Shown here: in pieces, positions 14,266 to 36,088 of the stretch | Numbering within the stretch: position 1 is the first letter of the stretch | How the letters are laid out: every line of letters starts with the position of its first letter | Assembly (NCBI GenBank): GCA_022508285.1 | Contig: JAFLVN010000009.1 | Location: 1 to 52,335 of the forward strand | Direction of reading: 5' to 3' | Source of the DNA: Clostridiales bacterium | GTDB taxonomy: Bacteria; Bacillota; Clostridia; Christensenellales; Borkfalkiaceae | Length of the DNA: 52,335 bases | The notes under the pieces: generated by a model | The model's input: only the letters and a program-made list of their open reading frames with translations | What the model was told of the DNA's origin: nothing | Databases searched by the model: none | Program-made: the position numbers and the translations under genes

Positions 14266-14400
14266 GTATGCAACTGCGGAGATACAAGCAAGACAAGGCG
14301 TGCGAGTATTTTTTGAAGGAGCGTACACAAAAGTACGTGACTGAAAAAAAACGGAGCACAACACAGTATTGCGAAGTATATACGCAGTTGGCGGCAGCTT
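14266..14400. repeat. Intergenic structured repeat, copy A
   Basis: Lies between ruvB and queA. CAACTGCG (14271-14278) and CGCAGTTG (14383-14390) form terminal inverted repeats. The interior has ACAAGCAAGACAAGGCG, a central hairpin GCGTAC / GTACGT (14321-14326 with 14333-14338) and TTGCGAAGTATATACGC. It aligns, in the same orientation, with copies B (16083-16203) and C (35914-36088). In copy A the central hairpin arms differ from those in B and C but still pair. The inner edge touches the ruvB stop codon. Confidence 0.8.
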
Positions 14401-15469
14401 AATTTTTAAAGTCTTTATCGAATATTGAAACTTGTTCTCTTTGCTTTTCTGTCATCTTATAGCCGAGGTGCTCGTATCCGCCACGGAGTATCATTCTGCC
14501 TCGGGGAGTGCGGGCTATAAAGCCGAGCTGAAGTAAGTACGGCTCGTACATATCCTCTATTGTCCCTGCGTCCTCGTTTATGGTTGCGGCAAGCGTTTCC
14601 AAACCGACGGGGCGACCGTCGAATTTTTCTATCATTGCACGGAGAAGCGCTCTGTCAACCTCGTCTAAACCGAGCTCGTCCACTTCCATTCTCTTTAAGG
14701 CAAACTTTGCGTCGTCCACCGTCACGGTCGCATTGCCCTTGACTGTGGAGAAGTCGCGCACACGCTTTAAAAGACGGTTGGCAATTCGGGGAGTTCCACG
14801 GCTGCGGCGTGAAATTTCTGACGCCGCTTTGTCGTCGATATCTATGCCTAGAGTGCGTGCCGAGCGGACGACAATTTCCTTTAATTCCTCGGGGGAATAC
14901 ATTTCGAGGCGGCAGGTTATGCCGAAACGGTCGCGCAGGGGGTTAGACATCATGCCGGCTCTGGTGGTTGCACCGATTAAAGTAAACTTTTTGAGCGTGA
15001 AGCGGATATTTCTTGCGCTCGGCCCTTTGCCGACTATTATGTCGAGGGCATAGTCCTCCATTGCGGAATATAAAATCTCCTCCACGCTGTGGTTGAGGCG
15101 GTGGATTTCGTCAATGAACAGCACGTCGCCTTCGTTTAAGTTGGTGAGAATTGCCGCAAGGTCGCCGCTGCGCTCTATGGCGGGTGCGCTGGTGAGCTTC
15201 AATTGACCGCCCATTTCGTTTGCGATTATGTGAGCAAGCGTGGTTTTACCAAGACCCGGAGCGCCGTACAAAAGGACGTGCTCCAAAGCTTCGCCGCGCT
15301 TCTTTGCTGCGTCCATATATACCTGCAAATTTTCCTTGACCTTGCTCTGACCGACGTACGCTTCGAGCGTTTTGGGGCGGAGTACGTTTTCTTCGTAATC
15401 GTACTCGCCCTTGGTGCTCTGCACTAAGCGTTCTTCGCCGCCGAATTCTTCGTCATCTTCGAAAAACAT
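14399..15469 (-). CDS. ruvB: Holliday junction branch migration ATPase RuvB
   Basis: Hexameric AAA+ motor that drives branch migration of Holliday junctions with RuvA. The 356-residue protein has Walker [10 protein letters not shown] (about 69-77), Walker B FIDEIH, the arginine-finger region of the [11 protein letters not shown] block, and a C-terminal winged helix containing [16 protein letters not shown]. It has an acidic N-terminal extension before the conserved [12 protein letters not shown]. It starts three bases after ruvA with an AAGGAA ribosome site. The stop codon abuts repeat copy A. Confidence 0.98.
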
Positions 15470-15472
15470 AAA

Positions 15473-16066
15473 TTACATTCCTTTGAGCGCAACCATGATT
15501 ATATCCTCAACAGATGTTGCGCCGCTTTCCTTTGCACGGGCTATTGCCTTTGCGCTCTCCTGCCGAGTGAAACCGAGAGTCATTAATGCGACAACCGCAT
15601 CCTCGTCACCCACAGAAATTGGAGTTACCGTAACAGCCTTTGCGCCGCCCTCGGCGGTGGCTATCACCTGCACCTTTTCTCTGAGCTCCAAAATTATGCG
15701 TTCAGCCGTCTTTTTGCCCAAGCCCTTGACAGCCGAAAGCCTCTTCACGTCGTTAGTTGCGATTGCTGCGGCGATATCGCTGGCACGCATACCCGAAAGT
15801 ACGGCTATGCCCATTTTTGGACCTACGCCGGAGACGGAAATAAGTTTTAAGAACATCTCCTTTTCTTCGGTTGCGGCAAAGCCGTAGAGCGACATGCCGT
15901 CCTCACGAACCTGCATATACGTGTAGAGTTCGCCCTCCGTTTTGCCGGCGAGTTTATCGTATGCGGCGGCGGAAATGAGCATTTCGAAGCCTATGCCCGA
16001 CGATGTCACAATGAGAGCCGTGTCGGGGGTGAGCGATTTTATTTGTCCTTTAATATATCCTATCAT
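15473..16066 (-). CDS. ruvA: Holliday junction DNA-binding protein RuvA
   Basis: Tetramer that binds the four-way junction and loads RuvB. From the ATG at 16066 it is 197 residues, the normal length, beginning with the family's MIGYIKGQI. It has the OB-fold domain, two helix-hairpin-helix segments (LISVSGVGPKMG and LSAVKGLGKKTAERI) and a RuvB-binding domain III at the C-terminus. The frame stays open upstream to 16162, but those extra residues are encoded by repeat copy B and do not resemble RuvA. No ribosome site stands out before 16066. Confidence 0.96.
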   Translation of the reverse strand: MIGYIKGQIKSLTPDTALIVTSSGIGFEMLISAAAYDKLAGKTEGELYTYMQVREDGMSLYGFAATEEKEMFLKLISVSGVGPKMGIAVLSGMRASDIAAAIATNDVKRLSAVKGLGKKTAERIILELREKVQVIATAEGGAKAVTVTPISVGDEDAVVALMTLGFTRQESAKAIARAKESGATSVEDIIMVALKGM

Positions 16067-16082
16067 ACTTTTAACCATCTTA

Positions 16083-16203
16083 AAATGCAGAGATACGAGC
16101 AAGACAAGGCGCGTGAGCATTGCTGAGGGGAGTTTACCGAATCGTAAATAACCCGAAGGCAAGCGGAACGCAACGCCGAATTGCGAAGTATATATGCGTT
16201 TTA
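16083..16203. repeat. Intergenic structured repeat, copy B
   Basis: Fills nearly all of the 138-base gap between ruvC and ruvA. It shares with copy A the block around GAGCAAGACAAGGCG and TTGCGAAGTATATATGC, and with copy C the block GAGGGGAGTTTAC...CGTAAATAACCCGAAGG. The central hairpin is TTTAC (16133-16137) with GTAAA (16144-16148). The terminal arms are shorter than in A and C. Confidence 0.8.
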
Positions 16204-16204
16204 A

Positions 16205-16702
16205 TTACCTTATACCGTAAAGTTTGCCGAAGCGTGACGTGTGAGCATGGCAGAGCGCAACTGCGAGTGCGTCCGCTGCATCGTCGGGGCGGGGGATTTT
16301 CTGCAAATGCAGAAGTGAAGTCACAACGTGCTGCATCTGAATTTTATCTGCTTTGCCGTAGCCCGTGAGCGACTGTTTTATCTGGTTGGGGGTGTATTCA
16401 AACAGCCTGCCGCAGTACTTTATACAAGTCAACAGCATAACTCCCCTTGCGTGGGCTACGGGTATGCCCGTTGTGATATTTTTGGAAAAGAACAGCTCCT
16501 CCACCGCAATCTCTTCGGGCTTGTACTTTGTTAAAATTTTATTTATGCCCTCCTCAAGCATCGCAAGGCGGACGGGCAGGCTCTCGTCTTTGGGCGTTAA
16601 AACCACGCCGTAGTCAACTGCTACGGTGTTGTCGTTTTTTTGCTTTTCGATAACTCCGTAGCCCATTGTGGCAAGCCCGGGGTCGAGTCCCAAAATAATC
16701 AT
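16205..16702 (-). CDS. ruvC: Holliday junction endonuclease RuvC
   Basis: Resolves Holliday junctions by paired nicks. The 165-residue protein shows the four acidic catalytic positions: D7 (LGLDPG), the Glu of AVEELFF near 68, and the two Asp of PDDAADALAVALCH near 140. It is the first gene of ruvC-ruvA-ruvB-queA-tgt. The message leader has a hairpin that ends at GGGG, a likely ribosome site 8-10 bases before the ATG. Confidence 0.97.
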   Translation of the reverse strand: MIILGLDPGLATMGYGVIEKQKNDNTVAVDYGVVLTPKDESLPVRLAMLEEGINKILTKYKPEEIAVEELFFSKNITTGIPVAHARGVMLLTCIKYCGRLFEYTPNQIKQSLTGYGKADKIQMQHVVTSLLHLQKIPRPDDAADALAVALCHAHTSRFGKLYGIR

Positions 16703-16712
16703 TGGCGCATCC

Positions 16713-16736
16713 CCGACAAAAAACTTGATTTGTCGG
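16713..16736 (-). promoter_or_regulatory. Leader hairpin next to the ruvC ribosome site
   Basis: CCGACAAA (16713-16720) pairs with TTTGTCGG (16729-16736). On the minus-strand transcript the hairpin ends directly before the GGGG that serves as ribosome site, so folding could modulate access. Read on the plus strand the same hairpin is followed by a T-rich stretch. Confidence 0.5.
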
Positions 16737-16756
16737 CTTAATTTTTTTATAATAAT

Positions 16757-16785
16757 ATTGTAAAATATTTTCAGTAATAAGTCAA
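16757..16785 (-). promoter_or_regulatory. SigA-type promoter of the ruvCAB-queA-tgt operon
   Basis: Minus strand: -35 TTGACT (16780-16785), 17-base spacer, -10 TACAAT (16757-16762). The predicted leader is about 50 bases. No LexA-type GAAC-N4-GTTC box was seen by eye, so SOS control is not supported. Confidence 0.82.
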
Positions 16786-16804
16786 CTTATTAGAGTTATA
16801 ATTA

Positions 16805-16839
16805 AGCCCCGCCCGAGGCGAAACGCCTCGGGCGGGGCT
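16805..16839 (-). terminator. Strong hairpin after sigF
   Basis: A perfect 16-base-pair, very GC-rich stem (AGCCCCGCCCGAGGCG and its complement, three-base loop), beginning 23 bases after the sigF stop. The following T tract is weak on both strands, so it may rely on stem strength or act as a message-end stabiliser. Confidence 0.7.
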
Positions 16840-16861
16840 ACACTTAATTTATACCGTAGCT

Positions 16862-17587
16862 TTATCCCGTTAAATCCTTGCGGAAGGTGCGCATTATGCG
16901 GTTTTCTATGCGGGAAACCTGCACTTGGGATACGCCGAGCATATTAGCCACTTCGCTCTGTGTCATGTCTCGGAAGTAGCGAAGTATTATCACTTTTTTG
17001 TCCCGCTCGGGCAGGTTGGAAATTGCCGTTTTCAGTTGGAGAGAGTCGATTATCTCTTCCTGATTGTCGAGGGCGGGGAGCTTGTCGAGTAGCTCCTGAC
17101 CCTTGTCGTCCTTGTAGTCGCCACGCTCGTAAATGGATACGGGCATGCGGGTTGAGCCCATTGTGAACACCACTTCGCTTTCTGGCATGTTAAATTCCTG
17201 AGAAATTATTTTTATAGACGGCTGTGCGCCGTGCTCTACCGAATAATCTTCGATGAATTTATTTATCTGTTTTGCCGCACTCTTTATGGCACGGGAAACC
17301 TTTATACTGCCGTCGTCACGCATAAAACGCTTGATTTCGCCGGCAATCATCGGCACGGCGTAGGTTGAAAAGCGAACGCCGAAAGACTCATCGAAGCCGT
17401 TAATCGCTTTTAACAGTCCGAGCCCCGCAAGCTGATATAAATCATCGTACTCCACTCCCTTATTAAGGTAGCGGCGGACGATTGATTTTATTAAGTTGTT
17501 ATTTTTAACTAAAAGGACTTCCTTTGCATTAGAGTCGCCCTCTTTTGCTCTGCGTATAAGGTCGTTCGTCTCCTCGACGTCAAGCAT
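16862..17587 (-). CDS. sigF: RNA polymerase sporulation sigma factor SigF
   Basis: Sigma factor that starts forespore-specific transcription. The 241-residue sigma-70 family protein has region 2 (LIKSIVRRYLNKGVEYDDLYQLAGLGLLKAI near 32-62, then FSTYAVPMIAGEIKRFMRDDG), region 3, and region 4 with a helix-turn-helix TQSEVANMLGVSQVQVSRIE near 210-230. SigG is close in sequence, but position behind spoIIAA-spoIIAB identifies SigF. It overlaps spoIIAB by eight bases, the usual coupling with its anti-sigma factor. Confidence 0.96.
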   Translation of the reverse strand: MLDVEETNDLIRRAKEGDSNAKEVLLVKNNNLIKSIVRRYLNKGVEYDDLYQLAGLGLLKAINGFDESFGVRFSTYAVPMIAGEIKRFMRDDGSIKVSRAIKSAAKQINKFIEDYSVEHGAQPSIKIISQEFNMPESEVVFTMGSTRMPVSIYERGDYKDDKGQELLDKLPALDNQEEIIDSLQLKTAISNLPERDKKVIILRYFRDMTQSEVANMLGVSQVQVSRIENRIMRTFRKDLTG

Positions 17588-18017
17588 TCTCCACTTCCGC
17601 TTTAAAACTTTTTGACATATAGACGACGGTGCCCTCTCCTTTGACCGATTCCACGTTGAATTCGTCCATGAAGGTCTGCATTATGGTGAAGCCCATGCCG
17701 CTGCGCTCGTCGGAAGGAAGCGACGTATAGAATGGTTGCACAGCCTTTTTGATATCGGCTATGCCCGCCCCCTGGTCGCTTACCTTTATATGTAATTTGT
17801 TATCCTCGATTTCGCACTCCACCGTCACCATTCCGCAGTTATCTTTATAGGCGTGTACCGTGCAGTTTGTAACCGCTTCGGACACGGCGGTTTTTACGTC
17901 CGAGATATCGGAAAGTGACGGATTGAGTTCAAGGCAAAAAGCGGCAACCGCATCTCTTGCGAACGCCTGATTGCGGGGATAGGAATAAAATTGAAGTTTT
18001 AAATAGTTTTTGCTCAT
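17580..18017 (-). CDS. spoIIAB: Anti-sigma F factor / serine kinase SpoIIAB
   Basis: Binds and holds SigF inactive before septation and phosphorylates SpoIIAA. The 145-residue GHKL-fold kinase has the N box EAVTNCTVHAY (near 47-57), G1 box DQGAGI and G2 box RSGMGFTIM. It lies between its partner genes, eight bases after spoIIAA and overlapping sigF by eight. Confidence 0.97.
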   Translation of the reverse strand: MSKNYLKLQFYSYPRNQAFARDAVAAFCLELNPSLSDISDVKTAVSEAVTNCTVHAYKDNCGMVTVECEIEDNKLHIKVSDQGAGIADIKKAVQPFYTSLPSDERSGMGFTIMQTFMDEFNVESVKGEGTVVYMSKSFKAEVENA

Positions 18018-18025
18018 ACTTACCT

Positions 18026-18337
18026 CTACTCTGCTTTGGGAATAAGTGAATATATACCGCTCAAATTTAGAATTTTGTCGGCGGCGAAGTTGGGTTTTTG
18101 AATGTACAGCGGCACGTTTATGCGGTTGGCTTTTTTGTATCTGCCGATTAAAAAGCCTATGCCCGTTGAATCCATGAAAGCCACTTCGGAAAGGTTAATT
18201 ATAATTTTTTTTGCAGCTACGTTTTCGTCAATCAATTTGTCGCAGTGGGTGCGTGCATCGCGAGAAGAGCACTCGTCCATTTCGCCCGATAAGTTGATAT
18301 ACAGCGTTCTGTCTTTAACATATCCTGAAACATGCAT
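18026..18337 (-). CDS. spoIIAA: Anti-anti-sigma factor SpoIIAA
   Basis: STAS-domain protein whose unphosphorylated form frees SigF from SpoIIAB. From the ATG at 18337 it is 103 residues, beginning MHVSGYVKDRTLYINLSGEMD, with the phosphorylatable serine at S57 in FMDSTGIGF. The frame is open upstream to 18487, but those residues are low-complexity and hydrophobic, and a GGAG ribosome site fixes the start at 18337. A SigH promoter is expected from the family; I could not find a convincing one, only a weak TATAGT near 18370. Confidence 0.95.
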   Translation of the reverse strand: MHVSGYVKDRTLYINLSGEMDECSSRDARTHCDKLIDENVAAKKIIINLSEVAFMDSTGIGFLIGRYKKANRINVPLYIQKPNFAADKILNLSGIYSLIPKAE

Positions 18338-18480
18338 ATGTCTGCTCCGTGGTTTTTTTAAAATATTACTATATGTTAGGTCGAAAATTATGTATAAGGA
18401 CGGCGATTGAAGCATAGTTTTGTCGTATTTTATTTTTGATTTTGTTTTTAAAAAAACTATGCAAATGATTAAAAAATTGC

Positions 18481-18512
18481 TTGACAAAAATTTATGGGTA
18501 TATTATTATAAT
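18481..18512 (+). promoter_or_regulatory. Promoter of the tRNA cluster
   Basis: -35 TTGACA (18481-18486) followed by TATTAT at 18504-18509 (17-base spacer), overlapping a perfect TATAAT at 18507-18512 (20-base spacer). It stands 32 bases before the first tRNA and would serve all five genes. It is divergent to spoIIAA. Confidence 0.75.
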
Positions 18513-18543
18513 TTAGCGTTGTGCGACAATGTACACCTGTTGA

Positions 18544-18617
18544 GGGACTTTAGCTCAGTTGGTTAGAGCGGTCGGCTCATAACCGATTGGTCCGCGGTTC
18601 GAGTCCGTGAAGTCCCA
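18544..18617 (+). tRNA. tRNA with CAU anticodon (elongator Met or Ile2)
   Basis: Complete cloverleaf: acceptor GGGACTT/AAGTCCC, D arm GCTC...GAGC, anticodon loop CTCATAA, T arm with TTCGAGT. Discriminator A and an encoded CCA follow (18618-18620). G1-C72 pairing excludes initiator tRNA. The anticodon CAU could be elongator Met, or Ile2 if modified to lysidine; the body resembles Ile2-type tRNAs of Gram-positives, so the identity is left open. Confidence 0.95.
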
Positions 18618-18628
18618 CCACATTACAT

Positions 18629-18702
18629 GGCCCGATAGCTCAGTTGGTTAGAGCGCCAGCCTGTCACGCTGGAGGTCGACGGTTCGAGCCCGTTTCGGGT
18701 CG
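18629..18702 (+). tRNA. tRNA-Asp (GUC)
   Basis: Acceptor GGCCCGA/TCGGGTC with one G-U pair; anticodon stem CCAGC/GCTGG around CTGTCAC, giving GTC. Discriminator G and encoded CCA (18703-18705). A queuosine target of the tgt/queA products. Confidence 0.97.
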
Positions 18703-18733
18703 CCAAACTTTTTAACGCCGAAAGGCGTACAAC

Positions 18734-18806
18734 GCCTTGGTAGCTCAGATGGTAGAGCGGTGGACTGAAAATCCATATGTCGGCGGTTCGATTCCACCCC
18801 AAGGCA
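18734..18806 (+). tRNA. tRNA-Phe (GAA)
   Basis: Acceptor GCCTTGG/CCAAGGC; anticodon loop CTGAAAA, giving GAA. Discriminator A and encoded CCA. Its ACCA end and GAA anticodon match the UGGU and UUC of the pheST T-box at 39.9 kb, so it is the expected sensor ligand. Confidence 0.97.
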
Positions 18807-18826
18807 CCACCCACGCGGGCGGACAC

Positions 18827-18899
18827 GCTGGTGTAGCTCAATTGGCAGAGCAGCTGATTTGTAATCAGCAGGTTGTGGGTTCGATTCCAATCACCAGCT
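18827..18899 (+). tRNA. tRNA-Thr (UGU)
   Basis: Acceptor GCTGGTG/CACCAGC; anticodon stem CTGAT/ATCAG around TTTGTAA, giving TGT. Discriminator T and encoded CCA (18900-18902). Confidence 0.97.
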
Positions 18900-18949
18900 C
18901 CACAAGTTACCTACCCCGCGGCACTTAAGCGGGGTAAAATTAATAAATC

Positions 18950-19031
18950 GGGCGGATTGCAGAGTGGCCAAATGCATCAGACTGTAAATCTGACGTCTCC
19001 GACTTCGGTGGTTCGAATCCACCTCCTCCCA
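18950..19031 (+). tRNA. tRNA-Tyr (GUA), with an acceptor mismatch
   Basis: Class II tRNA with a long variable arm; anticodon stem TCAGA/TCTGA around CTGTAAA gives GTA. T arm GGTGG-TTCGAAT-CCACC is intact. The acceptor pairs GGGCGGA with TCCTCCC, leaving a C-U mismatch at the fourth pair. Discriminator A and encoded CCA (19032-19034). A tRNA-Tyr-like fragment with the fully complementary GGGAGGA follows downstream. Confidence 0.93.
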
Positions 19032-19041
19032 CCACGAATTT

Positions 19042-19064
19042 AGCACCCTTACGGGTGCTTTTTT
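19042..19064 (+). terminator. Terminator of the tRNA cluster
   Basis: AGCACCC (19042-19048) pairs with GGGTGCT (19053-19059), followed by a run of six T. The bases flanking it (19021-19036 and 19065-19080) are also inverted repeats, so a longer hairpin including the tRNA-Tyr 3' end could form. Confidence 0.88.
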
Positions 19065-19070
19065 CGTGGT

Positions 19071-19176
19071 GGGAGGAGGTTGTAGTAGATGAAGTTATAC
19101 CGTTCGACTGAGCGTAGCGAAGGTTTGCCGAGGAGATCCTTTTAAGGGTTTCGGTAATATCCACCTCCTCCCTCCA
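19071..19176 (+). pseudogene. Decayed tRNA-Tyr-like remnant or att-like duplication
   Basis: Begins with GGGAGGA (19071-19077) and ends with TCCTCCC-T-CCA (19166-19176): a perfect seven-pair acceptor, one discriminator base and CCA. CCACC before the 3' arm matches the T stem of tRNA-Tyr, but no D, anticodon or T loop survives. Inside is a GTTCGACTGAGCGTAGCGAA segment resembling a dispersed repeat. It may be a degenerate second tRNA-Tyr or the scar of integration at the tRNA 3' end. Confidence 0.5.
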
Positions 19177-19220
19177 CAAACTTTTGATCGATAAAAATTT
19201 ACATAACCACACAAAAAGTT

Positions 19221-19249
19221 TTGAAATTAAACAATTTGGCTTGTAGTAT
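19221..19249 (+). promoter_or_regulatory. Possible promoter of the phosphoesterase gene
   Basis: -35 TTGAAA (19221-19226), 17-base spacer, -10 TAGTAT (19244-19249), four of six consensus bases in each box. It lies 23 bases before the ATG. Confidence 0.45.
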
Positions 19250-19272
19250 TTTAAATTATCAAGTGAGGGAAT

Positions 19273-20271
19273 ATGAAATTTATTTTTAGAAGAATAGCAA
19301 TCCTTGTGCTTACATTATCAGCAATATTCACGTCACTTTTATTTAACGGATGCACACAATTATTTAATGAAAGTACCCAAGCAGTTAAAGAGTTGCAATT
19401 TGAAGACTATATGTTGCAAATAGAATACGTAGACAACTTTAAAATAATGCAACTTGCCGATATTCAGGCTAATACTTCCGAAAAGTGCGATAATGCTTTT
19501 ATAGACATTAAAAAACTTGTGAATAAAGAACAACCAAACCTCATTGTTTTGACAGGCGATAATGTTGAAATACCGAAAAGCGAAGACGTATTATACACTT
19601 TAATAGCCAATATGGAAAGTTTAAAAACTCCATGGGCTGCTGTTTTCGGAAACCATGATTCTGAAGGTGTACTTTCTAAAAATTTTATGGCAGAGAAATT
19701 TATTGAAGCGGAGAACTGCTTGTTTTATAAAGGAGAGCAAGGAGTTGACGGAGTTGGTAACTACGTTATCAACCTTACAACCGCACGCAATAAAATTGCA
19801 TATAGCTTGTTTATGTTAGATAGTAATAGGTATGCCAAAGGCGGCTATGATTCAATACATGAAAACCAAATTGAGTGGTACGAACGTGCTGTAAATAAAC
19901 TAACCGAGTTAAATGAAAATAAGGTTGTTCCGTCACTGGCATTTTTCCATATACCGTTACAAGAGTTTATTTATGCGAAAGAGTCTTTAGACAGGAACGA
20001 AAGCGAAGGATTTGCTGTTTTCAACGAAGAAGTATCTCCGGGCGTTATAAATACAGGATTTTTCAGTAAAGCACAAGAACTAAAAAGTACAAAAGGTATT
20101 TTTTGCGGGCACGACCACATAAATAACTGTGATATAAATTATCAGGGCATCCACCTTGTGTATGGGCTTAAATCTTCAAAATGTTCTTATTATAATAGCT
20201 CATTACTGGGCGCAACAACGATAACTTTAACAACCGACGACATAGAAATCAGAAATTCATATTTCGAGTAA
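19273..20271 (+). CDS. Lipoprotein calcineurin-like metallophosphoesterase
   Basis: Predicted surface-anchored phosphoesterase of 332 residues. The N-terminus has a basic start, a hydrophobic stretch (about 8-25) and a lipobox-like LLFNGC with Cys27. The calcineurin-like metal motifs appear in order: LADIQ (D63, Q65), GDN (D96, N97), GNHD (N127, H128), FFHIP and GHDH. The family hydrolyses phosphomonoesters, diesters or nucleotides; the substrate cannot be read here. It is monocistronic, with GAGGG as ribosome site and a terminator directly after. It looks AT-richer than the housekeeping genes around it and lies just past a tRNA-end duplication, so recent acquisition is possible. Confidence 0.85.
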   Translation: MKFIFRRIAILVLTLSAIFTSLLFNGCTQLFNESTQAVKELQFEDYMLQIEYVDNFKIMQLADIQANTSEKCDNAFIDIKKLVNKEQPNLIVLTGDNVEIPKSEDVLYTLIANMESLKTPWAAVFGNHDSEGVLSKNFMAEKFIEAENCLFYKGEQGVDGVGNYVINLTTARNKIAYSLFMLDSNRYAKGGYDSIHENQIEWYERAVNKLTELNENKVVPSLAFFHIPLQEFIYAKESLDRNESEGFAVFNEEVSPGVINTGFFSKAQELKSTKGIFCGHDHINNCDINYQGIHLVYGLKSSKCSYYNSSLLGATTITLTTDDIEIRNSYFE

Positions 20272-20276
20272 TTGAA

Positions 20277-20303
20277 ACAGGCACCCATCGGGTGTCTGTT
20301 TTT
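20277..20303 (+). terminator. Terminator of the phosphoesterase gene
   Basis: ACAGGCACCC pairs with GGGTGTCTGT (one G-U, three-base loop), followed by a run of T. It starts six bases after the stop codon. Confidence 0.88.
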
Positions 20304-20351
20304 CTTTTGCCGTTTTGTACGCAACTATCGCGCATAAGCCGTGTTATATGA

Positions 20352-20380
20352 GTGACAAACGTTTCCGGATGTTATATAAT
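20352..20380 (+). promoter_or_regulatory. SigA-type promoter of the ketopantoate reductase homologue
   Basis: -35 GTGACA (20352-20357), 17-base spacer, -10 TATAAT (20375-20380), 32 bases before the ATG. Confidence 0.8.
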
Positions 20381-20411
20381 TGAAATATAAATAGAATTTA
20401 AGGAGTTGAAT

Positions 20412-21431
20412 ATGAAATATGCACTTTACGGAGCAGGATCGCTCGGAATCGTTTTGAGTGCCTATCTGGCAAAAAACGGGGAAAAGTTTGATATAATCGA
20501 TAGAAACCCAAAGAGCGTTGACGCTTTAAATAAAAACGGCGCAATAGTTGTCGGAACGGTTCAAATGAAGGAAACTGTCAACGCAATATTAGATACTGAT
20601 GTGCAAGATAAATATGATATAATCTTTTTATTAACAAAGCAGCTTGGAAATCTTGAAACCATAAAAAAGATATCTGAATTTCTGACACAAGACGGAGTTA
20701 TTTGCACAATGCAAAACGGACTTCCCGAAAAAGATATTTCCGAAGTGATTGGAGAGAACAGAACTTTCGGCTGTGCGGTTGCTTGGGGTGCAACAAGAAT
20801 CGAGCCGGGCAAAAGCGAACTGACGTCTAAACCGGAAAGACAAAGTTTGAGTTTTAGTTTCGGAAGTATGGACGGTCATAAGGGCGAAAAGTTTGATGAA
20901 ATTGTCAGAATTCTTAACGTTATGGGCGACGTGCAAATTGAAGAAAACTTTATCGGTGCCCGTTGGTCAAAGCTTCTTATAAATTCCGCATTCAGCGGAA
21001 TGAGCGCGGTATGCGGAAAGACGTTCGGTGAAGTCGCAAAATTCAAGCCCAGCAGAAAAATTATACAAAGGATAATTAAGGAATGTATTGACGTTGCCGT
21101 TGCAAACGGAATTAAAATAGAACCTATTCAAGGTAAAGACGTTGTGAAGATTTTGGACTATAAAGGTCCGTTCAAAAAATGGCTGAGTTTTGTGATAATT
21201 CCGATTGCAATCAAAAAACACAGATTGCTGAAAGCCAGCATGCTGCAAGATATAGAAAAGGGCATACCCTGTGAAATTGATTACATCAACGGCATTGTTT
21301 CCGAATACGGAAAAAAAGTCGGAACATTAACCCCTTTCAACGATAAAGTAATTGAAATTGTTCATAAGTTCGAAAGCGGAGAACTTACGCCGAACCTTAA
21401 CAACGTAAAGTATTTTGAAGAATTGTACTAA
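20412..21431 (+). CDS. Ketopantoate reductase family protein (ApbA/PanE)
   Basis: NADPH-dependent reductase of the 2-dehydropantoate 2-reductase family, which in pantothenate synthesis reduces ketopantoate to pantoate. From the ATG at 20412 (339 residues, AGGAG ribosome site) it has the Rossmann GAGSLG motif near residue 7, a TKQ block near 77, the catalytic Lys and Asn region RWSKLLINSAFSGM near 195, and SMLQDIEKGIPCEIDYING, the signature of the C-terminal domain. It is longer than typical PanE (about 300), and no panB, panC or panD is nearby, so another 2-keto acid is possible. It is monocistronic and looks AT-rich like its upstream neighbour. Confidence 0.85.
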   Translation: MKYALYGAGSLGIVLSAYLAKNGEKFDIIDRNPKSVDALNKNGAIVVGTVQMKETVNAILDTDVQDKYDIIFLLTKQLGNLETIKKISEFLTQDGVICTMQNGLPEKDISEVIGENRTFGCAVAWGATRIEPGKSELTSKPERQSLSFSFGSMDGHKGEKFDEIVRILNVMGDVQIEENFIGARWSKLLINSAFSGMSAVCGKTFGEVAKFKPSRKIIQRIIKECIDVAVANGIKIEPIQGKDVVKILDYKGPFKKWLSFVIIPIAIKKHRLLKASMLQDIEKGIPCEIDYINGIVSEYGKKVGTLTPFNDKVIEIVHKFESGELTPNLNNVKYFEELY

Positions 21432-21486
21432 GCGGTTAAAATTTATACTTTTATAATTCGTTTAGGTTACTACTACTCCATCACGA

Positions 21487-21516
21487 AAAGAAGCAAGGCT
21501 TTCGCCTTGCTTCTTT
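21487..21516. terminator. Bidirectional terminator
   Basis: A perfect 13-base-pair stem (AAAGAAGCAAGGC and its complement, four-base loop) with A and T flanks, lying between the convergent ends of the reductase gene (plus) and the ZIP gene (minus). Confidence 0.88.
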
Positions 21517-21551
21517 AATTATCATACCAGAGCACTTTACAAATTATTGAA

Positions 21552-27989: not shown

Positions 27990-28026
27990 AAAAACTCCTT
28001 ATTTTTCGGCATTTTTATTTGTATAT

Positions 28027-28055: not shown

Positions 28056-28064
28056 GCTATAATG

Positions 28065-28345
28065 AGCCACGCTGTAATAAATTATAACACGGTTTTTGTA
28101 TATGTCTTTTGGCTTATCCTTTGTCAAAGCCCTTGTCAATCCACCTTTGGATTAACTGCGGTCTTTTTCTCGGCTAATCTCAAAATTCATTATACCAAAA
28201 CTGCGAAGCACTCAAACGAGTGTATTTGCGATTGATTTATATTCGCAGCGACTGAGGCATACAAAGACGTACGCCGAAGGAGCTGCGGAGAGAAAGCGGC
28301 GCAAATCCGCCGTTTGAGCGTATTATAATTTGTTACAGCGTGGCT
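28065..28345. mobile_element. MITE-like element with 27-bp terminal inverted repeats
   Basis: 28065-28091 and 28319-28345 are inverted repeats with two mismatches in 27; both begin AGCCACGCTGTAA from the outside. The 227-base interior has no long frame but holds smaller palindromes, including CACTC/GAGTG and a segment ending GACGTACGCCGAAGGAGC. A clear target-site duplication was not found. It sits between the divergent promoters of mrp and the SRP RNA gene. Confidence 0.7.
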
Positions 28346-28352
28346 ATTTTAC

Positions 28353-28381: not shown

Positions 28382-28387
28382 AGCTGT

Positions 28388-28653: not shown

Positions 28654-28667
28654 TTTTTTGATAACAG

Positions 28668-28709
28668 AGCGGCGTTGAGTTAAACTCAACGCCGCTATTA
28701 TTTTTTTTA
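28668..28709 (+). terminator. Terminator after the SRP RNA
   Basis: AGCGGCGTTGAGT (28668-28680) pairs with its complement (28684-28696), followed by ATTA and a run of eight T. On the minus strand the same stem could help end the uppP message. Confidence 0.85.
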
Positions 28710-28728
28710 GATTTTTAGAGCTATATAA

Positions 28729-29547: not shown

Positions 29548-29567
29548 AATATTTTAATAACCTTGAA

Positions 29568-31790
29568 TTAAGAATTGGAATCGAGATCAAGTAAATCCTG
29601 ATATGCGGACGTGATTTTATTGACGGTGGAATCCACGTTGAACTGCGTCATAATCTCCGTTCTGCGGGTCGTGGAAATTTCCTTTATGTCGTTGTTCTTT
29701 AACCACTCGTAGAAGAAGTTTTCGAACGTGCCCTCTACCGTAATATTATCCCAGTTGGGCTGATAAACGGCTTCGTCGTTAGGATATGTGAATGTTACGT
29801 AGATTAAATGCCAGCCGTAGTCGCCTGCGCAGACGTTGAACGAACCGGGACCATTCTCTATAGCTACGTGAGCAGCCGTTTCAAATTCCTTGATATAGCC
29901 CGTAGTGTCGCCGAGGGTTACGGTGTAGCCCAAATACTGCGAAAGGACTCCCGTATCGGTGGTGTATGCGTACTGCAATTCGTTTACAGCCGCAAGAGCT
30001 TTATACTGTGCGCTATCCTTATTAAAGATATTTGCCCTGTAATCGGCAGACTTTGCGTCTACGCCGTTAAGACTTACACTACCTTCTGCATAGATGAAGT
30101 TTTCGTAGTCAATCTTCTTATCTTTTGCCTTTACTTCGTCTTTGGTATCTTCGGTGTAGAATTTATCCTCTGTAAAATCGGTGTAGTAAGCTTCGTTGCC
30201 GTCTTCGGGATTATATCCGTCGAACGTTACACTGCCGTCGCCGTCCAATACATATTCAATATATGCTTTGAACTCTGCAAGCATGTCGTCGATTGTAAGT
30301 TTTTTAGTGTGGTGGAACTTATAGCTGCCGTCCGGCATTTTTACTACTTCGCCGTTGTAGGGGTATTTGCCGATATACTTATCGAGTGATTCGTAGCGGT
30401 CTGTCTTTGTGAGGTTGTTTTCAAAGAACAGCCAGTTTCTGCCATCGCCCTTGCCGAAGTATTCAAGATCTTCCTTTTCGGAAGCGTCGAATGCGTAAGA
30501 AGTTGCGCTGTTAAACCATGCCTGACGCTGGTCGGTGGTTTTAATTTGCTTTAAAAGCTCGTTGCGCTCTTTGTAGTAATTATAGGTGTAGTTGTCTGCG
30601 TCGTCTTTATTGTCGGCATTGTTTTGAAGTGCGGTAAGCTTTGCACTCTGGCTTGCATTGAAAGGCAACAGGATGTTGTACACAAAGCCGTACGTACCTT
30701 CGCCTTCGGTATCGGGTGCATACAGTACGAACGAAGTATCGGATATGCTACCGATATCGGACTTGAACGAGTCGTCTGCGTTTTCTTTCTGCAAATCCAT
30801 CAATTTATTGTAAGCTTTGTCAAGATAATCGTTGCCGGTGAGCTCTTTTTCTTGCTCCTTTTCATATAAATCGTAATACTTGTTGATTATGCGGCTCTCG
30901 AGCTGGGAGATATATTCGTGGTTCATATACTCTATTCCGCCCTTAATGTCAACAAGGTCGTCTTTATCGGGATCTATAAGTCCGTTGTCGATAAGCATGT
31001 CTAAAAAGTCGTTGTACGCCTGTTGACGGGTTGCTCTTTCGGTGTTTTTAAGCGCATTATCTTCATAGTCGCCGCTCTCACCAAGCAGATATCCCTTATA
31101 GCCCGTGTAAATGTTATAGTCAAGCTCAAGTTTGCCGTTCTCACCCTGCTTTGCGGGATAGAAATCTTCTTTTTCCGTGTCAATACCCGAGGGAGTTGCA
31201 CGGTTTTCGGAACCGGAAGTCGTATCCTCTTCGTCGAGATATCTCTTCTCGTAGGAGTCCAAAGCGGAATTTATAGCCGAATAGAAGCCGTATTTTGCTA
31301 TTTTAACTTCCTTATCGGGGTCGTCCGCACCATCATCGGTGAGAAGATACTCGAGCTTTTCGATATCGCTCATAAGCTTATATTCGTTTATGAGGGTAGC
31401 CGTTTCCGCACCTTTATCTCCTACTTTTGCGTCGAGCAGGTACATAGTGGCGTACTGCGTGAGAACGGCGTTTTCTACTAAACCGTCTACGAGCATATTG
31501 AATACGTAGCTGGTGGAATAACCCATATTCACATAGGAGATACCGCGGTTGAGATAATATGCAATCAGCTCGTTTTTATAAATTTTTGTTGTGCCTACCG
31601 CACCCTTGTAGGTGTCTATCAGGTCTCTATCGGCACTGCTGAGCCCTTTTGCGTTGGCAATGTTTACGGTAGCTATAACCTGAAGCATGTCCTCGTCGTT
31701 ATTTGATGTAACGAGAGAACAACCCGTAAATGCGGCGGTGAGTGCGAATGTAGACGCTAAAAGCGTGCCGATCAATCTTTTCTTCTTCAT
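29568..31790 (-). CDS. Large PrsA/SurA-like lipoprotein
   Basis: Predicted extracytoplasmic lipoprotein of 740 residues: signal peptide with lipobox-like AFTGC (Cys24), then a long acidic, Tyr/Asp/Lys-rich body. An N-terminal stretch (about 60-115) of the kind IYKNELIAYYLNRGISYVNMG recalls the SurA/PrsA N-domain. GDYGWHLIYVTF near 660 matches the end of a parvulin PPIC domain. The gene lies right after mfd, where clostridial foldases of this kind are usual, so a chaperone or peptidyl-prolyl isomerase role is inferred. It is about twice the length of PrsA and the central parvulin motifs are not clear. GGAG ribosome site and its own promoter. Confidence 0.72.
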   Translation of the reverse strand: MKKKRLIGTLLASTFALTAAFTGCSLVTSNNDEDMLQVIATVNIANAKGLSSADRDLIDTYKGAVGTTKIYKNELIAYYLNRGISYVNMGYSTSYVFNMLVDGLVENAVLTQYATMYLLDAKVGDKGAETATLINEYKLMSDIEKLEYLLTDDGADDPDKEVKIAKYGFYSAINSALDSYEKRYLDEEDTTSGSENRATPSGIDTEKEDFYPAKQGENGKLELDYNIYTGYKGYLLGESGDYEDNALKNTERATRQQAYNDFLDMLIDNGLIDPDKDDLVDIKGGIEYMNHEYISQLESRIINKYYDLYEKEQEKELTGNDYLDKAYNKLMDLQKENADDSFKSDIGSISDTSFVLYAPDTEGEGTYGFVYNILLPFNASQSAKLTALQNNADNKDDADNYTYNYYKERNELLKQIKTTDQRQAWFNSATSYAFDASEKEDLEYFGKGDGRNWLFFENNLTKTDRYESLDKYIGKYPYNGEVVKMPDGSYKFHHTKKLTIDDMLAEFKAYIEYVLDGDGSVTFDGYNPEDGNEAYYTDFTEDKFYTEDTKDEVKAKDKKIDYENFIYAEGSVSLNGVDAKSADYRANIFNKDSAQYKALAAVNELQYAYTTDTGVLSQYLGYTVTLGDTTGYIKEFETAAHVAIENGPGSFNVCAGDYGWHLIYVTFTYPNDEAVYQPNWDNITVEGTFENFFYEWLKNNDIKEISTTRRTEIMTQFNVDSTVNKITSAYQDLLDLDSNS

Positions 31791-31802
31791 AAAAACTCCA
31801 TT

Positions 31803-31821
31803 TTGCGCAGGTCGTGCGCAA
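31803..31821 (-). promoter_or_regulatory. Leader hairpin of the PrsA-like gene
   Basis: TTGCGC (31803-31808) pairs with GCGCAA (31816-31821) in the 5' leader, ending a few bases before the GGAG ribosome site. Confidence 0.4.
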
Positions 31822-31857
31822 TCGGCAATTATTTAAAAATTTTCTTTACCGTTGACC

Positions 31858-31886
31858 ATTATATAATATTTTTAATATTATAGCAA
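31858..31886 (-). promoter_or_regulatory. Promoter of the PrsA-like gene
   Basis: Minus strand: -35 TTGCTA (31881-31886), 17-base A/T spacer, -10 TATAAT (31858-31863), in the gap after mfd. Confidence 0.6.
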
Positions 31887-31892
31887 TTAATT

Positions 31893-34800
31893 TCAGGCAC
31901 CTTGAAGGGCAAATTTAAAAAATTTTGTCATGTTGAGCATAGTTTTCAGCGGTTGAACACCGCTGTTGAATACCACAAGGGGCGCACGAGCCATGGAAAG
32001 TGTGACTCCGCCCTTATATTTTTCAAGCGCGGAGGTGAGTCGGGTGTCTTCTAAACTGTTCAAAGAGGGCAGCTCTAAAAAGTTTTGCTCCCTGCTCACC
32101 GTAATCTTTTTTACGTTGAATTTTTGGGCGTAGGACTTTAACACGGCTATGACAAGAAGATTTAAAACTTCGTCGGGCATTGCACCGTAATTGTCCTCTA
32201 TGGAGCGGCACACACGCTTGTAGTCGTCCACCGAGCGAATTTCGGCAATCTGTTTGTAGCAGTCAAGCCGCCCTGCGCTGCTTTCGATATAGCCCTCCGG
32301 AATATATGCGGTAACTTTGATATCGAGCTCTGCGGCAAACTGCGCCTCGCCCGTGAGCTCCTCTTTGAGTAGCTTGGAATACAGCTCGTAACCCACCTTA
32401 TCCATGTGACCGTGCTGCTCTGCGCCGAGCACGTTGCCTGCGCCTCGGATTTCGAGGTCGCGCATGGCGATTTTAAAGCCGGAGCCAAGCTCGGTGAATT
32501 TCATTATCGCCTTTAGCCGCTCGGTGGCGTCGCTCGTTAAAACCTTTTCCGCCTTGAAAGTGAAGTACGCCTGCGCAAGGCGGGAACTTCTGCCCACTCT
32601 GCCCCTAAGCTGATAGAGCTGGGAAATTCCGAGGCGGTCGCTGTCTATAACTATTATCGTGTTTGCGTTGGGCAAATCTATGCCGTTTTCGATAATCGTG
32701 GTTGTGACGAGCACGTTGTTTTCGCCTCGGTAGAATGAAAATACCGAATTTTCAAGCGTGTCCCTGTCCATTCTGCCGTGGGCGTAGGTGACTTTCGCTT
32801 CGGGGATAATCTGACGTATGCGTGAAGTGAAAGAGGCAATGCTCTCTACCCTGTTGTATAAAATGAATACCTGCCCGCCTCGGGAAATTTCACGGATAAC
32901 CGCATCGCGTATGAGCGTTTCGCTCTCCTCCACCACGTAGGTCTGCACGGGCAGGCGCTTTTGGGGAGGAGTATTAATTGTAGAAATATCCCGTATTCCA
33001 GCAAGTGACATATGAAGTGTGCGGGGTATGGGAGTTGCCGTCATTGTGAGGCAGTCGATATCTTTTTTTACGTGCTTTATCTTTTCCTTGTGCTCGACGC
33101 CGAAACGCTGTTCCTCGTCGAGGACGAGAAGTCCCAAATCGTAAAATTTTACGTCGTTCGATAAAAGGCGGTGAGTGCCGATTATCACGTCGATATCGCC
33201 GTTTGCAAGAGCTTCCAAGGTCTTAGCCTGCTGTGCCGGCGTTTTGAAGCGGTTGAGCTTATCGACCCTCACTCCGAATTCGGCAAAGCGTTCTACGGCG
33301 GTGTTGTAGTGCTGTTCCGAAAGGATTGTGCTGGGGCACATTATCGCCGCCTGCTTGCCGCCGAGGACGGCAAGGTATACCGCACGGAGAGCAACTTCGG
33401 TCTTGCCGTAACCGACGTCGCCGCAGAGAAGTCTGTCCATGACCTTTTCCGAGCACATATCCCGCTTTATTTCCTCGATGGAAAGAAGCTGGTCGGGAGT
33501 TTCTTCATAGGTGAAACTGTCTTCAAACTCCTGCATCATCACGGCGTTTTCGGGGAAGGCGTAGCCGTGTTTGGCGCTGCGTTCGGCGTACAGCTCCTTT
33601 AAGTCGAAGGCAAGCTTTTTGATTGACTGACGCACCCTCTCCTTTACTCTTTCAAAGTCTGCGCCGCCTATCTTTGAGAGAGCGGGCGCGCTGTCGCCGA
33701 CGTATTTCGAGAGAATGTCCATCTGCTCTACGGGCACGTACAGCGTGTCGCCGCCCTTGTATTCCACGGCGACGTATTCCTTTATTCCGTCGGTCGTCTC
33801 TATTTTTTGTGTGCCGGTAATCTTGCCTATGCCGTGCTTTTCGTGCACGCAGTAGTCGCCTATTTCGGGTGCGACGAACATGTCGCCTCGGCGGCGCTTT
33901 ATGCGTTTTGTGACCGTCTTTGTGTACAGGTCGGAGCTGCCTATAATTACGAGCTTGCACTCGTGAATTATTAAACCGTGCGCAACCTCCTCACCCGAAA
34001 CTGCAACGCCATGCAGGGCTTCGAGTCTGTCGGGAACGGGATACACCGGAAGATATTCGTCCGTTAAAATATCCGAAAGCTTTTGATACCTTTCCACGTT
34101 GCCGCAAAATACGAGTATGCGGTAACCGTTCTGCAGCCAGCTCTTTGCGTCGATCACAAACTGCGGCAGAGAGTTAAGGTATGACGGTGCGGGCGTAGAG
34201 CGCAAAGTGAACGTTTTTAAGGGGTGAAAAAAACTTGTGCTTGAAGTAAAAGTCTGTACGGCAAAATTGCGGAATTTTGCAAAACACCCCGTAATATATT
34301 CGGGTGAAACGAGTTGATCCACCGAAAAATCTAACGCCTCGCCGCCCTTTTTAAGGTCGGCAACACGCTCCTTGTGCTCTCGGTAGACACCCTCCATTCT
34401 GTCGCCAATCAGCTTACATTCATCGAACATTATGAGCGTATCCGAGGGTAGAAAATCAAACACGGTACGTGAATTTTCTAAAAGCGGCATTACGAAAGAC
34501 GCCCCCGCAAACGGCGTGCCGAGCGACATCTTTTCGCACAGCTCGTCGGCAATTGTTTTTGCCCTCTCGTACGACTTTACGTCGGGTAGCTTCTTTATTT
34601 CGGAGTATAATACCGATTTGACGTGCGCTACGTCGGCGTTTGTAAATTTTACGTCGGTTGCGGCGACTATTTCAAGAAAATTGCACTCCTCCAACCTCTC
34701 GCCGCTTATCTGGTCGTAAGGGCGGATTTTTTCTACCGTATCACCGAAAAAGTCAACACGCGCGGGGTTTTCGGCGTTTATCGGATAGATATCGAGAATG

Positions 34801-35306
34801 TCGCCCCGTATTGCAAAACTTCCTCGACTGTCGGCGGCATACTCCCTTGTATAGCCCATTGAAATGAGTTTTGACGGCAGTGACTGATAGTCGTAGTCGC
34901 TGCCCTTTTTCAGTTTGAGAACTTCAATTTGTGCGGGTGCAAGTTGCATTAAAGCTTCGATATCGGCAACTATGCACTCTGCACCCTCCGAAATTTCTGC
35001 AAGTGCACAAATCCGTTTGAATAAGGCGTCCTTTGAAAGGGCGTCTTTATATAAAATGACTTCGTCTTTTGCGGTAAGGCAAGCGCACTTTTTACCCGAG
35101 AACGCCGAAATTGCCTCGTATGCCCGCTGCGCTGACATGCCGTCGGCGGTGACGTACAGCACACTGCCCGCAGTCGCCGCCGCAGTTAAATATTTATGGG
35201 ATTCCGACAGCCCAAAAGCCGCCGTCGGCGTGCCGAGGCGGAGTTCTTCGGACAGGGCGGGATAATCGCCCTGTAGATTTTTATAGGTGAAAAATGCTTT
35301 GTTCAA
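31893..35306 (-). CDS. mfd: Transcription-repair coupling factor Mfd
   Basis: ATP-driven translocase that removes stalled RNA polymerase and recruits UvrA. The 1137-residue protein has an N-terminal UvrB-like region (RGDILDIYPINAENPARVDF), the RNA-polymerase interaction domain GDYCVHEKHGIGK near 490, helicase motifs GDVGYGKTEVALR (Walker A), LDEEQRFG (the Mfd DEEQ box) and TATPIPRTLHMSL, and the C-terminal TRCF domain. The frame opens at a TTG with a weak GGTAG upstream, and the residues after it fit the family N-terminus. It follows pth by 21 bases, a conserved pair. Confidence 0.97.
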   Translation of the reverse strand: MNKAFFTYKNLQGDYPALSEELRLGTPTAAFGLSESHKYLTAAATAGSVLYVTADGMSAQRAYEAISAFSGKKCACLTAKDEVILYKDALSKDALFKRICALAEISEGAECIVADIEALMQLAPAQIEVLKLKKGSDYDYQSLPSKLISMGYTREYAADSRGSFAIRGDILDIYPINAENPARVDFFGDTVEKIRPYDQISGERLEECNFLEIVAATDVKFTNADVAHVKSVLYSEIKKLPDVKSYERAKTIADELCEKMSLGTPFAGASFVMPLLENSRTVFDFLPSDTLIMFDECKLIGDRMEGVYREHKERVADLKKGGEALDFSVDQLVSPEYITGCFAKFRNFAVQTFTSSTSFFHPLKTFTLRSTPAPSYLNSLPQFVIDAKSWLQNGYRILVFCGNVERYQKLSDILTDEYLPVYPVPDRLEALHGVAVSGEEVAHGLIIHECKLVIIGSSDLYTKTVTKRIKRRRGDMFVAPEIGDYCVHEKHGIGKITGTQKIETTDGIKEYVAVEYKGGDTLYVPVEQMDILSKYVGDSAPALSKIGGADFERVKERVRQSIKKLAFDLKELYAERSAKHGYAFPENAVMMQEFEDSFTYEETPDQLLSIEEIKRDMCSEKVMDRLLCGDVGYGKTEVALRAVYLAVLGGKQAAIMCPSTILSEQHYNTAVERFAEFGVRVDKLNRFKTPAQQAKTLEALANGDIDVIIGTHRLLSNDVKFYDLGLLVLDEEQRFGVEHKEKIKHVKKDIDCLTMTATPIPRTLHMSLAGIRDISTINTPPQKRLPVQTYVVEESETLIRDAVIREISRGGQVFILYNRVESIASFTSRIRQIIPEAKVTYAHGRMDRDTLENSVFSFYRGENNVLVTTTIIENGIDLPNANTIIVIDSDRLGISQLYQLRGRVGRSSRLAQAYFTFKAEKVLTSDATERLKAIMKFTELGSGFKIAMRDLEIRGAGNVLGAEQHGHMDKVGYELYSKLLKEELTGEAQFAAELDIKVTAYIPEGYIESSAGRLDCYKQIAEIRSVDDYKRVCRSIEDNYGAMPDEVLNLLVIAVLKSYAQKFNVKKITVSREQNFLELPSLNSLEDTRLTSALEKYKGGVTLSMARAPLVVFNSGVQPLKTMLNMTKFFKFALQGA

Positions 35307-35327
35307 AATTCTACCGATTATTACTTA

Positions 35328-35891
35328 TTAGCCATTATAAGAGGTCATTACTTCTTCTGTAGACTTGCCGCTTGCGAGAGCAATTGCCGCATCCGCCGCA
35401 CGGGTGCAGGCGGAAATAAACAGCTCGTAGTCCTCTTTTCTGACTTCGGAAAGAACGTAATTTATGATGGGAATATTGACTTCCTCATCCCGTATGCCTA
35501 TACGGATACGGGTGAAGTTCTGCGTGCCGATTTCGGCAATCACCGAGCGCATTCCGTTGTGAGTGCCTGCACTGCCCGAGGGGCGTATTCTGACTTTGCC
35601 CTTGGGTATATCGTAGTCGTCGTAAATTACCACGAGGTTGTCCGCAGTGGTCTTGTATTTTGCAAGGAGCTGTTTTACTGCTCTGCCGCTGTTGTTCATG
35701 TAGGTTACGGGGCGGGCTATTATCACCTTTTCGCCGCCGATATTGGCTTCGGCAATAAACGCCTCGCACTCCTTTTTTTTGAACTTGACGTTAAGCTTAG
35801 CCGCAACGTCGCCTGCGGCGATATAGCCCATGTTATGGAAGGTTTTTAAATATTTTTCCTCGGGATTCCCGAGTCCGACAATTATATACAT
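35328..35891 (-). CDS. pth: Peptidyl-tRNA hydrolase
   Basis: Releases stalled peptides from tRNA. From the ATG at 35891 it has 187 residues, beginning MYIIVGLGNPEEKY, with the catalytic His in TFHNMGY near 19, VTYMNNSG near 66 and IYDDYDIPKGKVRIRPSGSA near 92. The AAGGA ribosome site fits this start. The frame is open upstream to 35942, but those codons run towards repeat copy C and are not part of Pth. prs-pth-mfd is a conserved order; here a repeat and a terminator separate prs from pth. Confidence 0.96.
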   Translation of the reverse strand: MYIIVGLGNPEEKYLKTFHNMGYIAAGDVAAKLNVKFKKKECEAFIAEANIGGEKVIIARPVTYMNNSGRAVKQLLAKYKTTADNLVVIYDDYDIPKGKVRIRPSGSAGTHNGMRSVIAEIGTQNFTRIRIGIRDEEVNIPIINYVLSEVRKEDYELFISACTRAADAAIALASGKSTEEVMTSYNG

Positions 35892-35913
35892 TTTTTTATC
35901 CTTATTGCTGGAT

Positions 35914-36088
35914 ATATGCAACTGCGGAGAAGCAATCTCCACTTGCTCGGAATATGAAACTTTGAAGATGCGAGTTAGGCAAGGAGCCTGCGGATTTTCG
36001 AGGGGAGTTTACTTATGCGTAAATAACCCGAAGAAAAACGCAAAGGCGACAAAGTATAACGACGCATATGCAAAGTTTGCGGTAGCTT
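35914..36088. repeat. Intergenic structured repeat, copy C
   Basis: Between prs and pth. It shares ATGCAACTGCGGAGA and GCGGTAGCTT ends with copy A, and GAGGGGAGTTTAC...GTAAATAACCCGAAG with copy B. The central hairpin is TTTAC (36008-36012) with GTAAA (36019-36023). It carries about 40 extra bases near its left end, including a GGAGA/TCTCC hairpin. Orientation relative to the genes is the same as in A and B. Confidence 0.78.

Follow-up and report, generated by a model that had tools for sequence, protein, structure and literature searches.

What is the hairpin repeat that recurs between genes of a gut bacterium of the Clostridiales, and how does it come to lie there? The stretch of DNA analysed here, the 52,335 nt of contig JAFLVN010000009.1 in assembly GCA_022508285.1 (hereafter, the window), contains three diverged copies, A, B and C, for which the original prediction gave starts at 14266, 16083 and 35914, and which it regarded as message-processing or stabilising elements, protein-binding sites or non-autonomous mobile DNA. 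All three copies are present where it put them, and the repeat is a family far larger than these three. The family forms long hairpins, occupies a strict position at the ends of genes, and spreads, with copy numbers that swing widely between related genomes. The reading that we favour, with moderate confidence, is that of a non-autonomous mobile repeat, recognised by its structure, of the REP, ERIC or miniature inverted-repeat transposable element (MITE) kind, whose pairing remains constrained after insertion.

A DNA search of the 1.47 Mb genome that contains the window (the own genome) returned 41 matches when copy A was the query and 42 when copy B was used. We aligned 36 of the own copies (alignment A2), drew up a structure of 36 pairs manually, guided by the base counts, and used both to build a covariance model, R1. 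R1 gave 53 matches in the own genome at E ≤ 1, of which 51 had E ≤ 2.1e-13 and two, both partial, 5.6e-5; this number is beyond chance. A search of this type, which had been proposed for the genome and its relatives, thus recovered many further copies, and these carry compensatory changes. Two other collections were assembled. The named set comprises 109 copies (81 of 102 matches at ≥ 88.9 bits and 28 of 55 at ≥ 85.6 bits, without 7 whole-genome loci), and the far set comprises 41 copies, after 19 of 60 matches, mostly tandem neighbours, had been dropped. These two sets overlap, since at least two copies are in both (L340 is L142, and L331 is L126), and for several genomes of the far set the assembly is one that also supplied named loci. 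One own copy (L198) is cut by the end of its stretch. Genes were called with a simple custom script rather than a published caller. Because the copies are related, p-values are only indicative.

Each copy is an imperfect long hairpin of about 120 nt, described here on the strand that reads AGCAAGACAAGG, which we call the + strand. The core has 120 positions, and somewhat longer forms possess lineage-specific ends. The outer helix, P1, consists of eight pairs and is nearly free in sequence. Inward from it lie a purine-rich step and a short helix (for example, GAUAC/GUAUAU), followed by GCAAGAC/GUAUUGC, with one G.A mismatch, and by a variable four-pair helix; the innermost part is formed by a second variable helix, with a tandem G.A step before and after it, and finally by the cap hairpin. 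Three G.A mismatches are nearly invariant in A2 (11-114 in 36/36 copies, 34-89 in 34/36, and 50-72 in 34/36).

In this alignment, 95.5% of the cells are paired and 23 of the 36 pairs have changed on both sides. The covariation score was 0.492, compared with 0.191 in shuffled alignments, and none of 500 shuffles reached it; when the pairing partners were slid, the score was only 0.040-0.120. The count of further pair types was less telling, being reached by 55 of 500 shuffles. A second alignment, A4, with 60 matches (59 distinct) that were fitted to the model and are hence biased toward it, scored 0.559 against 0.175 in shuffles. Changes at paired positions are therefore compensated in both alignments. 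The change of the central arms from GCGTAC/GTACGT in copy A to TTTAC/GTAAA in B and C, noticed in the window, proved to be real, with A2 pairs 53-69 and 54-68 changed on both sides in 16/36 and 13/36 own copies. The outermost eight pairs are complementary, yet their sequence differs from copy to copy; since they vary freely while pairing, a fixed terminal sequence is unlikely to be the recognised feature.

The placement and orientation of the copies are strict: the 3' end of the + strand lies at the stop, or behind the terminator, of a gene that is antisense to it. Among the copies with a called gene past the 3' end, this gene was antisense in 174 of 196 (46/53 own, 95/105 named, 33/38 far), and its stop was found within 15 nt in 117 of 203 copies (33/53, 62/109 and 22/41, respectively). 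The mirror arrangement, in which a stop no more than 15 nt away faces the 5' end instead, was observed in 1 of 34. The commonest distance to the stop was -2 nt, which means that the final bases of the element belong to the stop codon, and the abutting stop was TAA in 99 of 117 cases, compared with 430 of 623 in the background. In gaps between codirectional genes, 28 of 39 own copies and 51 of 78 named copies lay within 8 nt of the stop, where uniform placement would give 4.8 and 9.1, and no copy of either set lay within 8 nt of the next start. A terminator-like hairpin intervenes in 8 of the 13 own copies, and in 11 of the 27 named copies, that are located 13-199 nt behind a stop. Of 20 copies from families other than that of the own genome (f6, f31, f23 and f29), 13 had a stop within 15 nt. 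The siting "inside operons" that had been proposed holds insofar as 40 of the 53 own copies are between codirectional genes, and can be refined to a position directly behind a stop codon or terminator, in antisense.

Of the two strands, the + strand is probably the relevant one, whether in the form of RNA or of single-stranded DNA. It was the more stable strand upon RNA folding in 43 of 47 own copies (those of 110-130 nt among the 53) and in 104 of 109 named ones, which exceeds the expectation from dinucleotide shuffles, and upon folding with DNA parameters, which was done without shuffles, in 47/47 own, 107/109 named and 41/41 far copies. The message strand folds too (mean z of -4.5 and -4.3). 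The common orientation of A, B and C relative to transcription, already recognised, can thus be expressed as antisense to the genes for the strand with the more stable fold. Mismatches were also counted. The stem cells of A2 include 56 G.T and 10 A.C, with two pairs supplying 38 of the 56 G.T, and in pairs 2-8 of P1 the ratio of G.T to A.C was 10:2 in the own, 33:9 in the named and 18:5 in the far set; P1 pair 1, which shows the opposite in the named set (G.T 1, A.C 7), was omitted from the P1 strand counts. Over all kept pairs, A.G prevailed over C.T (48:17) and A.A over T.T (23:4), significantly in the named set only. A control with true RNA stems gave 6 G.U and 1 A.C, although with 6 distinct tRNAs it is too small to rely on.

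R1 found matches in 28 of 41 relatives, the own genome included, and relatives carry up to dozens of copies: within the genus the number ranges from 0 to 65. Genome G014 has 65, G006 55, G024 51 and G018 none. At the level of the bacterial family, 122 of 151 genomes, from 16 of 17 genera, carry the element, and at that of the order 80 of 200, from 35 of 100 genera; these two wide searches scored only part of the candidates in each genome, so that their copy numbers are lower bounds. Among the matches listed, those with a name are nearly all from Clostridia, including Candidatus Borkfalkia, Coproplasma and Gallimonas, and two from other phyla gave no match when they were tested with the covariance model. 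Readable ruvB loci were obtained from 30 of 40 genomes with a match, and the ruvB-queA site behind ruvB was filled in only 1 of these 30 genus loci, that of the own genome. From the 0 to 65 copies within the genus and this single filled site among 30, we conclude that the element spreads, which favours the mobile-DNA option among those first offered. The site behind rplF (rplF-rplR) was filled in 3 of 30 loci, all within the genus; four genus loci had 64-122 nt without the element, and in other genera a short, clean gap of 10-14 nt was seen at 19 of 23 loci. Some relatives contain bursts of near-identical copies, recent ones being those of G014, G006 and G145, as well as tandem arrays. The rplF-rplR sites, the bursts and arrays, and an internal insertion that two own copies share likewise speak for mobility.

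Several particularities of the copies and their hosts were observed in these searches. Direct tandem arrays have a spacing of about 120-160 nt (L145, L177, L334, L352 and others), and at L099:2202-2443 three exact head motifs occur 111 nt apart without a model match, which suggests a head array or a diverged subfamily. The burst copies of genome G145 (L292-L307) share longer flanks, with CGACAACGGGTACCGTC before and TACGAAGTCC behind, and adjoin another repeat family (..CTCGGAATGA..). One 58-nt internal insertion is common to two own copies at separate loci (L008 and L021; G000 C1:6933-7110 and C45:24392-24568); both copies have an additional AT-rich hairpin (..GAAAATTTTTTAGGGTTAGTAAAAAATTTTC..) within the element, which looks like another small repeat that was carried along with it. 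Among the 41 relatives, the RNA-binding domain of Rho is weak in the genus (0 or 19.7-56.8 bits), whereas other families of the order, where they possess the domain, score 59.1-114.8 bits.

Persistence in place could be followed at queA. A match is located near this gene in 13 of 30 genus loci, and in nine of those the queA stop lies 13 nt inside the element. Across 11 queA-site elements, the outer arms form 7.09 of 8 Watson-Crick pairs within species and 3.73 of 8 between species, and none of 20000 permutations reached this result. One arm is made of the gene's own codons in nine of these elements; in L252 it corresponds to the gene end in a second copy, and in L256 it is located behind the stop. 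The outer arms therefore track the gene end of each species, and pairing has been kept in place across species divergence. Between species, P1 changes in blocks of several bases. At rplF, the corresponding values were 6.5 and 3.58 pairs for four loci, and 1563 of 20000 permutations reached the observed one, so this site has no statistical weight. In L231, L236, L242, L244 and L251, among others, the queA end is repeated (GGGACGC.ATG..) behind the queA-site element, as if gene end and element had been tandemly duplicated.

In the mobile repeat that we favour, the folded + strand, RNA or single-stranded DNA, would be recognised by an enzyme acting in trans, insertion would be directed to the downstream edge of genes, and pairing would then be maintained in place while species diverge, as observed at queA. 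A hairpin behind the stop might also, though this is the weaker suggestion, have a modest influence, of the kind exerted by REP sequences, on the adjacent message or on its translation. Some results weigh against this proposal. Among loci of ruvB and rplF, no near-identical pair of a filled and an empty site was found, and the closest pairs had 84-91% identity. Both the long persistence at queA and rplF and the fact that different genera reuse the same gene ends are compatible with a role for the host as well as with mobility. The excess of G.T over A.C, counted over all kept pairs, was not significant (18:11 own, 63:53 named). Finally, the search for a mobilising enzyme found none: neither Y1 transposase nor reverse transcriptase nor integron integrase fits, other recombinases not having been surveyed.

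These three enzymes were rejected because their presence does not track copy number. Y1 transposase (PF01797) is encoded in 11 of the 41 relatives and is absent from the copy-rich G006, G014, G024, G016 and G009; reverse transcriptase is encoded in 16 of 41, with none in the copy-rich genus members G006, G009, G016 and G017; and no genome of the 41 had an integron integrase over the TIGR02249 cut-off, while weaker tyrosine-recombinase matches occurred in 39. Phages and plasmids were likewise set aside as carriers. The exact head motif had 0 matches in viral contigs, plasmids gave no match, and only a weak copy (L362:3963-4079), at the usual antisense gene end, was detected in one unverified phage-labelled record from human faeces (MT835564.1).

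The alternative that best withstands these data, although we consider it unlikely, is that the repeat serves its host as a REP-like message element, whose hairpin would make ribosomes stall at the stop, obstruct exonucleases or uncouple adjacent genes of an operon, its spread being secondary. Ribosomes are reported to stall at REPs that lie no more than 15 nt from a stop (PMC12306157, in a section that cites another study), and the 117 of 203 copies at such distances would suit this role; however, the copies behind a terminator lie beyond the expected reach of the message. The message strand folds, but the antisense strand folds better and the P1 mismatches favour it. Retention at queA and rplF, with re-paired arms, has its counterpart in the many relatives without the element at the same genes.

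It is more doubtful that the hairpin owes its pairing to template switching, which would copy one arm into the other with little structural selection, in an otherwise ordinary small mobile element. Such switching is reported both to generate hairpins and to preserve them, with compensatory changes of several bases at a time (PMC8794818), so that compensation, interpreted in the original prediction as selection on structure, stands as an observation and is weaker as proof. The block changes of P1 between species and the rarity of intermediate G.T and A.C cells agree with such copying, whereas the persistence of the near-invariant mismatches and loops (11-114, 34-89 and 50-72 G.A), which it would erase, and the strand bias of P1 pairs 2-8 do not. 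Template switching may explain part of the covariation.

We give little credence to a bacterial element resembling a short interspersed nuclear element, in which folded + strand RNA would be copied into DNA, primed by the 3' end of the coding strand at the stop or terminator. Such one-step copying would account for the antisense orientation, for an RNA whose 3' end lies at the stop, for ends in which nothing but the pairing is conserved and for the address common to stops and terminators, but four copy-rich genus members have no reverse transcriptase. A boundary element, whose + strand hairpin would end or destabilise the antisense transcript when RNA polymerase arrives from behind the gene, is remoter still: it would jointly explain the antisense orientation, the sites at gene ends and behind terminators and the stabler + fold, but the hairpin is not usually followed by the U-tract of a typical intrinsic terminator, the element is all but missing from some members of the genus, and the link to a weak Rho, tried and rejected, is inconsistent, because other element-bearing families have stronger Rho domains. 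Least probable of all is a family of small structured RNA genes transcribed from the + strand, with a cellular job of their own and later multiplied, since the strong one-strand structure and the conserved purine-rich internal loops are accompanied by no positional enrichment upstream of any of the three promoter-like hexamers tried, by extreme variation in copy number, down to none in G018, and by no Rfam match for the copies in the window at gathering scores.

Integron attC sites are single-strand hairpins on the strand antisense to a gene, directly behind it, in which structure is kept while sequence varies. The repeat is similar in having an antisense-strand hairpin right behind the gene and a structure that outlasts its sequence; it differs in the absence of an integrase over the cut-off, in that many copies from other genera do not have AAC..GTT ends, and in that the neighbouring genes are fixed core genes rather than cassettes. 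ERIC/IRU, nemis, BOX and RUP, which are MITE-like, also have 100-200 bp, are folded and lie between or within operons, and are described with defined ends or target duplications, whereas the present repeat has freely varying outer pairs and a fixed orientation relative to the stop beside it. Complementary outer pairs that differ in sequence also depart from the conserved terminal inverted repeats of classical MITEs. The bcr1-bcr3 elements of the Bacillus cereus group are MITE-like, of similar size and often located in untranslated regions and operon gaps; they come from other bacteria and are likened by description, not by sequence, and the extracts of their descriptions mention no antisense address at stop codons (PMC3446304, PMC2267715). 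REP/REPIN sequences with TnpA-REP (RAYT) are, like this repeat, dispersed intergenic hairpins, non-autonomous, in many copies and often just behind stops (PMC12306157, in part). However, REPs have 20-40 bp and a GTAG or CGTC tag (PMC3733652, as excerpted), in contrast to about 120 bp, freely varying ends and no such tag seen here, and they are mobilised by RAYT, while Y1 transposase is lacking in the copy-rich G006, G014 and G024. In agreement with the remark that no named family matches, Rfam 15 gave nothing at copies A-C at gathering scores, matching only the SRP RNA and tRNAs in the window, and in 8 further loci searched to E 1 there were four matches, all below gathering scores and from four unrelated families. 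No description of the repeat was found in the open-licence literature, which does not prove its absence; it may already be numbered in a survey of the human microbiome with 3161 candidate RNAs, 250 of them palindromic, as the available part of that report states (PMC8040213).

In the window, the hairpin core of copy A, between ruvB and queA, spans 14271-14390 on the + strand (R1 match, 135 bits, E 9.7e-31, copy A being in the R1 training set). This copy is of the long form: its 5' outer end, GCTTGTTGTATG (14259-14270, +), corresponds in position to related ends in 18 long-type own copies, and its 3' outer end, GCGGCAGC (14391-14398, +), related to 8-base ends in long-type own copies, adjoins the stop of ruvB (14399-15469, -; Pfam RuvB_N and RuvB_C). 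The core of copy B, between ruvC and ruvA (16082-16202, +; R1 match, 115 bits, E 1.2e-25), ends 2 nt from the stop of ruvC (16205-16702, -; Pfam RuvC). That of copy C, between prs and pth (35957-36078, +; R1 match, 109.8 bits, E 2.6e-24), is followed by the 3' outer end GCGGTAGC (36079-36086, +); this copy appears longer because the head of a second copy, with sequence common to the head of copy A, is fused ahead of its core (about 35914-35956, +). The gene at its 3' side is prs (36124-37071, -; Pfam Pribosyltran_N), and the names RuvB, QueA, RuvA, RuvC, Prs and Pth were all borne out by Pfam. Of the earlier view that the copies abut stop or start codons between cotranscribed genes, the stop of the 3'-side gene stands (8 nt from copy A, 2 nt from copy B), as does the codirectional siting, but the start is not equivalent, and cotranscription is doubtful across copy C because a terminator-like hairpin with a T-run, found by script (36092-36119, -), separates it from the prs stop. 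Beside the SRP RNA gene, a 281-bp stretch (28065-28345) with 27-nt inverted repeats at its ends (93% complementary) is possibly an unrelated MITE-like element.

For a large and mostly uncultured group of Clostridia, the repeat represents a strand-specific landmark of gene ends with hundreds of comparable copies. It bears on the question of whether small dispersed bacterial palindromes are selfish, useful, or paired by mutation alone, and sites of the queA type, where one arm is the last codons of the host gene and the other tracks it by species, can separate those options. If it is true that the folded antisense strand is recognised, this would point to an enzyme of a kind that has yet to be described as a mobiliser of such repeats.

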